Below, in pieces: positions 51,329 through 56,253 of a DNA stretch of 64,000 nucleotides; the stretch's first letter is position 1, and each line of letters opens with the position of its first letter. The stretch is from contig JABISG010000131.1 of the NCBI GenBank assembly GCA_018699955.1, positions 62,001 to 126,000 on the forward strand. Reading direction: 5' to 3'. The stretch is from Planctomycetaceae bacterium (lineage in GTDB: Bacteria; Planctomycetota; Planctomycetia; Planctomycetales; Planctomycetaceae). The notes under the pieces were generated by a model that saw nothing but the letters and a program-made list of their open reading frames with translations, had not been told where the DNA came from and made no database searches. Made by a program: the position numbers and the translations under genes.

Positions 51329-52900
51329 ATGGCAAAGAAGTACATTGGACTGGAAGAGGCAGCTGAATTTCTTGGAGTTCAGCAGGACGAGTTGGTACGT
51401 CTTCGGGAAACCGGCAAGGTTCGCGGTTTCGCCGATCGTGGAACCTGGAAGTTCAAGATGGACGACCTGGAAGAATTGAGCCGCACCTTGCAGGCCGATT
51501 CCAACCCGGACGTTTCGATCATGCCCGTGGCCGGTTCCGATGAAACGGCTGCATCCGCTTCGGTGCTGGGTGGCGAGGAAGACTCCGTCGGCGAACAATC
51601 GACGACAATACGAGGAAGCGCCGACAGCGATGCCGCCCTCGTTGAAGGAACTTCGGATAGCGACGTCCGTTTGATTCTCGATGACGGCCTCGATGCCGCA
51701 GGCAGTGAACCGGATATGCCGTTACCGTCCGATCTCGACTCAGACAGCGACGTGCAACTCTTCGACGATTCATCAACGGTGTTAGACGCGGGCAGCGATA
51801 GCGATGTCGCACTCGTTGGGGCCGACTCGGACAGCGACGTCCGACTCGCACCAGTTGGCGACACCGATCCCGGCAGCGACAGCGATGTCCGGTTGGTTGA
51901 TGAAGATGAAACTGCGACAGCCGAACTCTCCAGCGACAGCGATGTCGCCCTCATTCCTGCGGACAGCGACGGATCCAGCGTTGTCCTTGGGGGTGACGAT
52001 GACGACGAATCGATTCTTTCAGAGGAAAGCGGAATTGAGTTGTCCGCCGAAAGTGGAATTTCTCTGGAGAATCTCGACGACAGTGGAATTTCCCTGGAAG
52101 CCGACAGTGGTCTCACACTGGCTGAAGACGACAGCGGTCTCTCCATCCTCGATGCCGACAGCGGACTAACGCTGGAATCGGATGACAGTGGAATTTCTTT
52201 GGAAGCCGACAGTGGAATCGCGCTGGCATCCGATCCTGATCTCGAAGACACGGACAAGACGGCTGCAATGCTCGCGATGCCGTCGCTCGACAGTGACGAC
52301 GGCGACAAAGACACGGAGTTGGAAATCCCGTCGCTCGATTCTGACGGCGACAGTGAATTTGAATTGCAGTTGGATGACTCTGAGATGGACAGCGCCGGCG
52401 ATTCGAGCGTGCTGCTGTTCGACGACGAGGATGAAGACCCAGACGAACATTCGCAGACCGTCGTCAAGAAGAGCAACGACTTCGAAGATGCCGAAGGCGA
52501 AACCTTCGATATCACCGAAGGCGACGACGATGGATTTGACCTGGAAGAGGACGAATTCGACGACGATGACGATCTGGATATTTCGGATGATGTCATCGGC
52601 GAAGACGATGAACTGGACGACCTCGACGTCTTCGATGCCGACGACGACGTGTTCGACGACGCGATGGAAAGCGGAGAGAGTCAGGCCGAATTTGCCGCGC
52701 CTGGCAGAGGACGCGTGGAAGTTGCCGCTCAGGAAGCCGACTGGGGTGGTGGAACCTTCGCGGGACTTCTGGTTTCCACCGGCTTGATGGCCCTTTGCAC
52801 CATGCTGATGTTCGACCTGGTTCGCGGCATGTGGGCCTGGAACGAGCCAAGCTCTTTCAACAGCGTGCTTCTCGAAGCTCTCTCTGGCTTGTTTGGCTAG
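51329..52900 (+). CDS. HTH-domain protein with acidic SDSDV/DSGI repeats and C-terminal membrane anchor
   Basis: This 523-residue protein begins with an excisionase/MerR-type HTH (about 1-50, IGLEEAAEFLGVQQDELVRL). A very acidic low-complexity region holds six SDSDV(R/Q/A)L repeats (about 108-208) and eight (D/E)SG(I/L)xL repeats (about 233-300). More Asp/Glu-rich segments follow. One membrane helix (about 476-497) precedes a 25-residue tail. The HTH would be cytosolic and the repeat region a long flexible linker, if the protein is tail-anchored. A role in DNA-membrane tethering or signalling is inference. The gene ends before a strong terminator. Confidence 0.82.
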   Translation: MAKKYIGLEEAAEFLGVQQDELVRLRETGKVRGFADRGTWKFKMDDLEELSRTLQADSNPDVSIMPVAGSDETAASASVLGGEEDSVGEQSTTIRGSADSDAALVEGTSDSDVRLILDDGLDAAGSEPDMPLPSDLDSDSDVQLFDDSSTVLDAGSDSDVALVGADSDSDVRLAPVGDTDPGSDSDVRLVDEDETATAELSSDSDVALIPADSDGSSVVLGGDDDDESILSEESGIELSAESGISLENLDDSGISLEADSGLTLAEDDSGLSILDADSGLTLESDDSGISLEADSGIALASDPDLEDTDKTAAMLAMPSLDSDDGDKDTELEIPSLDSDGDSEFELQLDDSEMDSAGDSSVLLFDDEDEDPDEHSQTVVKKSNDFEDAEGETFDITEGDDDGFDLEEDEFDDDDDLDISDDVIGEDDELDDLDVFDADDDVFDDAMESGESQAEFAAPGRGRVEVAAQEADWGGGTFAGLLVSTGLMALCTMLMFDLVRGMWAWNEPSSFNSVLLEALSGLFG

Positions 52901-52952: not shown

Positions 52953-52992
52953 AAAGATCCCGGGGGTTCTCGAATCCCCGGGATCTTTTTTT
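52953..52992 (+). terminator. Intrinsic terminator of the HTH-repeat gene
   Basis: Arms aaagatcccgggg (52953-52965) and ccccgggatcttt (52976-52988), extended by further loop pairing, are followed by a T-run. It is a textbook Rho-independent terminator about 50 bases after the stop codon. Confidence 0.93.
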
Positions 52993-55139: not shown

Positions 55140-55442
55140 TTATTCCGTCGCCGTTGGCGCGGTTTCCGGCGGCTCGAATTTTGGGGTGGTGACTTCGTCC
55201 TGCTCTTCTTCGGGAACCGGTCGCGACGTGGATGATGTCGCCGAGTAGCTCGAGTTGTACGTCGCCGAATCGACTTCGTCCTCAATGCCGCGCACGCCCT
55301 TCTTGAATTCGACGATTCCCTTGCCCAGGCTGCGGGCAACTTCCGGCAATCGCTTGCCGAACAACAACAACGCAATGCCGCCGATAATCATCAACTCGAA
55401 CGGGCCGGGAGCAAATCCGAATGCCAATACGTGTGTGGTCAT
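55140..55442 (-). CDS. TatA/TatE-like twin-arginine translocase subunit, gene 1
   Basis: This 100-residue protein has the TatA layout: a short N-terminal region, a membrane helix (FELMIIGGIALLLFGKRLP), the FGKRLPEVARSLGKGI hinge and amphipathic helix, and an acidic disordered tail. TatA pores export folded proteins with twin-arginine signals. No tatC is adjacent. A second related gene lies 118 bases upstream on the same strand. Confidence 0.88.
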   Translation of the reverse strand: MTTHVLAFGFAPGPFELMIIGGIALLLFGKRLPEVARSLGKGIVEFKKGVRGIEDEVDSATYNSSYSATSSTSRPVPEEEQDEVTTPKFEPPETAPTATE

Positions 55443-55560: not shown

Positions 55561-55785
55561 CTAACTTTCCGGCTTACCAGAATCCTCAGAGTCAGATTTC
55601 TCCGAGTCGGCGTCGCCGGTATCGCTGATACCCTTCTTGAATTCCACAATGCTGCTTCCCAGTGATCGCATGACGCCCGGCAATCGTTTGCCGAACAGCA
55701 ACAATATGATGACAGCCACAATGGCCATCTCCGGAATCCCAGGCATACCGGTAAAAATTGCGAGGATTGCTGAATCGATCATCAT
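55561..55785 (-). CDS. TatA/TatB-like twin-arginine translocase subunit, gene 2
   Basis: From ATG 55785 this gives 74 residues, with a membrane helix (MAIVAVIILLLFGKRLP), the amphipathic MRSLGSSIVEFKKG helix and an acidic tail. Upstream in-frame Met (55836) is less likely because gtggga directly precedes 55785. The two TatA-like genes differ enough to be complementary subunits, perhaps one TatA-like and one TatB-like, but which is which cannot be decided. Confidence 0.8.
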   Translation of the reverse strand: MMIDSAILAIFTGMPGIPEMAIVAVIILLLFGKRLPGVMRSLGSSIVEFKKGISDTGDADSEKSDSEDSGKPES

Positions 55786-56253
55786 ATCATCCCACGTGGT
55801 CGGCACATTGAAAACTCGCGCAAACAGGACGCCCATTTGCCATCATACCGTCCAACAAATACGGAACAACGTCGGTCAAGCCGAGGTAAAAAGCGAGGGG
55901 GATGAAAGCGCCTGTGAGCAACCTGCCTAAGAACATCCGCACTCGCGCCCAGCCGGCACGACAGTTTCCCAGTTGGATGTCCACTCGAGGTGCCCGCTTA
56001 AGGCAAGCAGGTGGGATGAGCGGTGGTGCATTTATTGTATCCCGCCGCCGGTGATTGTCAACGCAATTCCGCGCGACTCGCCTCGCGGTATGACAACACG
56101 CTGCCGTTGAAACGCAGGAATCTTGCGCAAGCGTTCATTCCCGAGGCCCACTGGACACGTTATAACAATTGTAACGTATAGATGTCCGCGAGGCTGCAGG
56201 ATGCCGGCAGCCCGTCGATCGTGCCGTCCGCCAGAAACTCGGGAACAATCGCC
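55786..56253. other. Region between the second tatA-like gene and the DUF1080 gene
   Basis: Besides the speculative small frame, these bases show no RNA gene, hairpin or repeat. Promoters of the divergent genes should be here. Confidence 0.35.
55787..55936 (-). CDS. Possible 49-residue membrane peptide coupled to the second tatA-like gene
   Basis: An open frame of 49 codons from ATG 55936 ends one base before the tatA-like ATG at 55785. The peptide begins MFLGRLLTGAFIPLAFYLG and is hydrophobic over about 27 residues. A ribosome site is weak, and the frame may be non-coding. The tight spacing and hydrophobicity are the only support. Confidence 0.2.
   Translation of the reverse strand: MFLGRLLTGAFIPLAFYLGLTDVVPYLLDGMMANGRPVCASFQCADHVG

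Follow-up and report, generated by a model that had tools for sequence, protein, structure and literature searches.

The gene at positions 51329 to 52900 of the window, the whole stretch of 64,000 nucleotides analyzed here from a Planctomycetaceae bacterium, encodes a protein that probably belongs to a widespread and little-studied device tying the cell interior, perhaps the chromosome, to the envelope. The explanation that we tentatively place first is that it may be an envelope-anchored tether working like RacA or RocS, with disordered motif arrays replacing the coiled coil. The C-terminal helix would sit in the inner membrane with a short tail outside, and about 410 disordered, strongly acidic residues would hold a winged helix-turn-helix (HTH) head off the membrane. 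We infer that the head would contact DNA mostly by way of its basic wing and the backbone, hardly reading the sequence; that through it the nucleoid would be tied to the envelope in the RacA/RocS fashion; that the Ser/Asp-hydrophobic repeats would be many equal docking sites for a partner, possibly phosphorylated; and that in many of the phylum's other families the membrane side would be physically coupled to a neighbor-encoded small protein and an OmpA-type lipoprotein. The predicted features of the gene are as follows.

51329..52900, + strand: whole gene, ATG start, 523 aa plus stop (ORF list, relatives in other genomes)
51329..51499, + strand: MerR/excisionase-type winged HTH head, residues 1-57 (PF12728, AlphaFold2 fold, fold matches, conserved wing)
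51653..51952, + strand: six SDSDVxL repeats, residues 109-208 (motif script)
52025..52225, + strand: seven strict (eight relaxed) [DE]SG[IL]xL repeats, residues 233-299 (motif script)
52235..52708, + strand: hyperacidic disordered stretch, residues 303-460, net charge -63 (charge count, AlphaFold2)
52748..52831, + strand: predicted membrane helix, residues 474-501 (hydropathy peak, AlphaFold2 helix, C-end hydrophobic segment of relatives)
52853..52894, + strand: short C-terminal amphipathic helix, residues 509-522 (AlphaFold2), which would lie beyond the membrane
52953..52992, + strand: intrinsic terminator of the gene (-29.9 kcal/mol, z -4.66)

AlphaFold2 (22 sequences) modeled the head with a mean pLDDT of 91-95 over residues 11-50, left residues 61 to about 468 without structure (pLDDT mostly <50), and placed a helix at residues 474-501 (pLDDT blocks of 79-91), followed by a short helix at 509-522. 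The C-terminal membrane helix claimed in the original prediction was recovered by hydropathy and by AlphaFold2, and its picture of an HTH head on a long disordered, membrane-held tether is borne out at the level of prediction, with conservation both within the class and among proteins picked from elsewhere in the phylum; the role in chromosome condensation that it suggested would be conjectural. The entire 523-aa protein carries a net charge of -132. Membrane orientation and signal peptides were assessed by eye; since the N-terminal part is long and acidic and no signal peptide was seen, the short tail is tentatively placed outside and the acidic N-terminal part would be cytoplasmic. The strong terminator that had been claimed for the end of the gene was located as a long GC-rich stem closed by a 4-base loop and followed by a T-run; a consensus scanner reported only a short inner stem at this site. 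An antisense ORF of 405 aa was observed opposite the acidic repeats (window 51379-52596, - strand), and its Ser-rich translation is probably a mere reverse reading of Asp/Ser codons.

The N-terminus had been described as an excisionase-type HTH, and both the predicted fold and the fold matches agreed with this assignment. AlphaFold2 yielded a helix-helix-hairpin-helix winged-HTH fold (mean pLDDT 81) matching Xis, BldC and MerR-type chains. The scores of PF12728 (HTH_17) straddled the cut-off of 27 bits, with 24.7 bits in the Pfam scan of the window protein (E 2.8e-5) and 29.3 bits at the same place in the whole-genome search, and TIGR01764 (excise) scored 19.2 bits on the window protein, below its cut-off of 28.8. 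The Foldseek neighbors of the head included BldC-DNA, RacA-DNA, RdfS, Pukovnik Xis, CbpM and MerR-type proteins, none with an E value below 0.01, and VIA-align gave Z scores up to 7.7, graded middling by the tool, with 7.0 for CbpM, 6.3 for RacA and 5.7 for Par (8csh). RacA was not returned by the head-profile search of PDB sequences; the one strong match in that search, 8vd6, is named in a protein-design paper and was set aside as uninformative on function. Identity with the methylation-associated defence protein MAD1 (NF047737) was rejected at 15.2 bits against a cut-off of 80, and PADLOC gave no match at E 0.01.

Most of the listed fold neighbors of the head are DNA-binding proteins of the MerR/Xis/RacA type. 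CbpM, also among the best matches (TMq 0.69-0.70 in Foldseek), has the same small fold and was solved with a J-domain protein; it binds the CbpA J-domain and is not known to have a membrane anchor or an acidic linker. CbpM speaks for a protein-docking adaptor, in which the HTH fold would bind a cytoplasmic protein and the arrays would gather more partners at the envelope with DNA uninvolved, whereas the predominance of DNA-binding proteins among the neighbors speaks against it. We consider such an adaptor possible, if somewhat unlikely, and it ranks as a close, strong rival of the tether.

Conservation within the head bears on both explanations. Among 93 sequences of the window's family, residues R26, R32, D36, R37 and K41 were invariant, and the mean entropy was 0.39 bits over the wing (36-43) versus 1.81 bits over the turn and recognition helix (16-27), where conservation within the head was lowest. 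Position 20, at the start of the base-reading helix, was D or E in 74/93 family and 38/43 other class sequences. An acidic, variable base-reading helix combined with a nearly invariant wing patch favors docking, whereas the mostly basic nature of that patch in the family (R26, R32, R37, K41) fits a phosphate backbone and counts against it. The contrast in entropy was weaker in the 43 other class sequences (1.06 bits for the wing vs. 1.95 bits for the turn and helix), where position 37 was G in 29 and position 26 was A in 20, and in genome G080 the wing motif was lost with the layout and neighbor genes retained. In a rough control using the HTH_17 places of the own genome (15, aligned only partly), a T-V/I/L step at the start of the base-reading helix was present in 7 of the 10 other alignable places, one of which also had E at position 20. 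The sequence pattern suggests that the head would make backbone-type contacts or form a protein interface rather than read a fixed operator.

The same pattern bears on another alternative, a membrane-bound transcription regulator that would control promoters from the membrane, sensing the state of the envelope via a small protein encoded upstream in other families, or would have its head released by proteolysis. ToxR/ToxS-like logic is the model here. The variable, acidic recognition helix and nearly invariant wing of the family are not what a fixed regulon would call for, which lowers the likelihood of a sequence-specific regulator at the membrane; moreover, only 22 residues follow the predicted membrane helix, which are few for a sensor domain. 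Overall, we regard a regulator of this kind as unlikely.

The motif script counted six SDSDVxL repeats in the window protein, as originally reported. The eight (D/E)SG(I/L)xL repeats reported with them were reproduced if DSGLSI was counted and fell to seven under the strict pattern [DE]SG[IL]xL. In 10,000 shuffles of the 415-aa linker, SDSDVxL reached a mean of 0.0015 and a maximum of 1 copy, and [DE]SG[IL]xL a mean of 0.021 and a maximum of 2, so neither array is explained by chance. The high acidity claimed for the linker was confirmed (96 Asp, 42 Glu and 60 Ser among the 415 residues, 58-472), with the correction that its most acidic stretch follows the repeats and does not lie inside them.

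Motifs and charge were then counted in 130 full-length proteins (87 of the window's family and 43 others of the class), obtained from 156 sequences via 136 after deduplication; the 6 dropped were all of the window's family. SDS[DE][VI]-type (SDSDV) motifs were present in 87/87 family proteins (0.9 expected from shuffles) and 17/43 other class proteins (0.2 expected), and DSGI-type motifs in 87/87 (6.1 expected) and 40/43 (2.3 expected), respectively. Two further patterns were less informative for the family: the SQVVALDE type was found in 1/87 family proteins, though in 22/43 other class proteins, and the EFEL type was near the shuffled expectation in the family (76/87 vs. 44). The linker net charge ranged from -53 to -264 in the 87 family proteins and from -33 to -133 in the 43 others, and the membrane segment started 48-67 residues before the C-end in all 130 proteins, which were non-redundant.

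These counts weigh on the notion that the repeats are a decorative low-complexity expansion of little function and that only the head and the anchor matter. Family members do vary widely in repeat number and in length (429-949 aa), as such an expansion would; however, the presence of both motif types in all 87 family proteins, and of the DSGI type in 40 of the 43 others, well above expectation in shuffles, argues against it, and the copies in the window gene differ in codons, which makes recent DNA duplication look unlikely as their origin. We consider a decorative origin very improbable, and the repeats probably act as multivalent docking or modification sites.

The original prediction had pointed to other planctomycetes as the place to look for the same repeat layout, and matches to the protein were widespread there. 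Fifty of 59 genomes (the own and its nearest) were positive, among them 34 of the 36 other genomes from the window's family. The head profile matched 171 of 198 class genomes at E 1e-8; 17 of 20 re-tested misses matched when queried with a divergent relative, and a further positive genome, G080, was located via its small neighbor gene. At least 189 of the 198 sampled class genomes therefore had a match, mostly one each and some of them partial; seven more misses stay counted as misses, and the total counts matches, with the layout verified in the opened proteins only. Among the best 80 of 109 contig loci, for which the query favors close relatives, every title but one, which read just "bacterium," was planctomycete (Schlesneria, Planctomicrobium, Thalassoglobus and others, mostly metagenome assemblies).

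In 57 class-wide rows, which contain two proteins twice, a hydrophobic segment near the C-end was present in 57/57 and the acidic linker, hence the full layout, in 56/57; the 57th is a retron paralogue. A phylum sample gave an HTH match at E 1e-6 in 152 of 246 genomes (16 of the 152 from the window's class) and none in the other 94. The layout was seen in 19 of 20 opened proteins from outside the class, hand-picked largely from among the best-ranked matches, and one was cut by undetermined bases. The linkers of these 20 were shorter and less acidic (61-275 aa, net charge -10 to -53), and in some of the proteins there was a second hydrophobic segment or the tail that followed was longer. Since it is conserved across the class and in the picked proteins of the wider phylum, the layout is probably under selection.

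Among the window genes upstream of the HTH gene is one for a trypsin-PDZ (HtrA-type) protease. Ten window neighbors, including this protease, an Ig-like protein and two TatA-type proteins, were searched for beside relatives, and none was found in 40 loci (E 1e-8) except a common DUF1080-type gene in 2. The protease lends some support to a membrane-bound regulator, whereas its absence beside the relatives at those 40 loci detracts from it. The two TatA_B_E-type genes adjoin each other at window 55140-55439 and 55561-55833 (-).

Two genes that are not part of this window recurred in the cross-family comparison, encoding a small protein upstream and an OmpA-type protein downstream. By the gene calling of this run 14 of 80 loci were without the focus gene, and in the all-ORF run the focus ORF was present in 160 of 160. 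The small protein (109-163 aa, 14 aligned) showed by eye an N-terminal hydrophobic segment and had the conserved core AVYxxD..G.I.L.SVR...WDL (examples L258:6737-7147 and L255:5981-6331), and neither Pfam (best E 0.036) nor NCBIfam (best E 0.015) gave a convincing match. Outside the window's family, its gene stood immediately upstream in the same orientation at 24 of 32 class loci, the remaining eight being those of families f3, f6 and f8, and at 12 of 20 phylum loci. A genome-wide search found it in 57 of 118 class genomes, with one match each and none in the window's family. In 49/49 genomes with both places listed, it lay 11-249 bases upstream of the HTH match on the same strand, and three of the eight small-protein genomes without a listed HTH place, when opened, had the genes in this order too, followed downstream by an OmpA-type match. 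Within the window's family it was directly upstream at 0 loci and had no match in the window's own genome; the lone trace was a weak distant match in L130/L046, two handles for a single contig.

Of the 32 class loci outside the family, 11 had the OmpA-type gene downstream, four of them as weak matches (E about 1e-9 to 1e-13, all f2, including L055, which overlaps the focus ORF by 820 bases); so did 9 of 20 phylum loci. Among loci of the window's family with 2 kb downstream, it was adjacent in 10 of 62 that are named and in 5 of 26 others (the sets overlap), and a relative in the window's genome is on another contig (E 2.2e-88). The Pfam OmpA domain was found in five of six scanned downstream proteins, with the sixth sub-threshold, and by eye the OmpA-type proteins share a conserved Gly-Cys start that resembles a lipobox. 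ResB/CcsA-type cytochrome c biogenesis genes were also observed downstream in several families (L258, L255, L259, L261, L071, L061), as was, in some, a downstream protein without a Pfam match (e.g., L255:8656-9750).

Judging from strand and spacing, the small gene, the HTH gene and the OmpA-type gene may be co-transcribed as an operon. A physical link would not be required everywhere, since the window's family and the opened f3, f6 and f8 loci are without an adjoining small gene and the OmpA-type gene is adjacent in a minority of family loci. The neighbor genes are envelope-type and not DNA-type, which favors the docking adaptor. The constant position of the small protein with its hydrophobic segment directly upstream in the 49 genomes, and the OmpA-type gene as a possible downstream target, are points for the membrane-bound regulator.

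Several known systems resemble the window protein in part. ToxR/ToxS and RodZ also place a cytoplasmic HTH on a membrane protein, and ToxS is a small membrane partner; they are set apart by other HTH types and large periplasmic parts. RacA of Bacillus subtilis, among the best fold matches of the head, is described as a DNA-membrane tether with an N-terminal DNA-binding HTH (PMC6593407), but it contains a coiled coil and attaches to the membrane via DivIVA, whereas the window protein has a disordered acidic linker and its own predicted membrane helix. RocS of Streptococcus pneumoniae is described with an N-terminal MerR-type winged HTH, a long middle part and C-terminal membrane attachment, like the window protein, and its DNA binding is reported to be reduced by phosphorylation (PMC11500499). 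RocS differs in its amphipathic helix and coiled coil, and its phosphosite is in the head and not in an acidic repeat array. The pSK1 Par protein shares the MerR-type winged HTH head, and is described as a plasmid partition protein with a coiled coil and a disordered C-terminal domain; in RacA and Par, the same source describes a helix entering the major groove and a wing mainly contacting the phosphate backbone (PMC11500499). Euo of the Chlamydiae, also of the PVC group, is an excisionase-like winged HTH protein, but is presented as a master transcription factor and reported as unique to Chlamydiae (PMC4989314). The window protein has the N-terminal MerR-type winged HTH of RacA and RocS and, by prediction, C-terminal membrane attachment, with no coiled coil in the AlphaFold2 model (residues 61-468 without structure). 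It is filed as a member of neither, and its DNA binding is putative.

The tether is supported by the conserved layout, by the mostly single match per genome, by fold neighbors including RacA, Par, BldC and Xis, by the invariant basic wing in the family and by the envelope-type neighbors in other families. It is weakened by the acidic start of the base-reading helix, by the less constrained wing outside the family, by CbpM being as close as RacA, by the missing prediction of a RacA/RocS-type coiled coil and by a family without an adjoining small gene. An extended chain can be drawn from the nucleoid through the winged HTH, the disordered tether, the inner membrane, the small one-pass protein and the OmpA-type lipoprotein to the peptidoglycan or outer membrane; by fastening the condensed planctomycete chromosome to the cell wall, this three-gene chain would serve to place and segregate it, a counterpart, in logic only, of eukaryotic nucleus-to-cytoskeleton linkers. 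We judge this full chain to be distinctly improbable.

Planctomycetia are described as having highly condensed DNA, and in Planctopirus limnophila certain genes of cell division and peptidoglycan, although essential to most of the bacteria studied, are reported to be dispensable (PMC10632474). A protein matched in nearly all sampled class genomes represents a concrete, testable candidate for a cytoplasm-envelope link, and its relatives provide a natural series of disordered tethers differing in length and motif number. No description of the protein or its gene neighborhood was found in the titles and abstract starts of the open-licence literature; the parts are of known kinds, and their combination and breadth across the phylum appear undescribed in the literature searched.

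Paralogues were also observed. The window protein had no PADLOC match at E 0.01, IHF-VHL_X included, and was rejected as a retron type X effector. Outside the window, the own genome encodes a paralogue (L069:5139-7156, G000:C60) in which the HTH subtype is fused to an IHF-VHL_X part (PADLOC E 5.4e-44) and a C-terminal hydrophobic helix is present. The HU/IHF domain of this paralogue was considered as support for DNA work and set aside, with a Pfam E of 0.055 only and a PADLOC assignment as retron type X effector; the PDB sequence search returned nothing related. By eye, a reverse-transcriptase-like ORF adjoins the paralogue, and the pair is likely a retron type X system; a homologous pair is present in genome G023 (L293), with RT_X at E 1.2e-102. 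In two family genomes there is also a second copy that is more divergent (L208 in G033 and L209 in G001); its layout is unchanged and its repeats are mainly of the DSG type.
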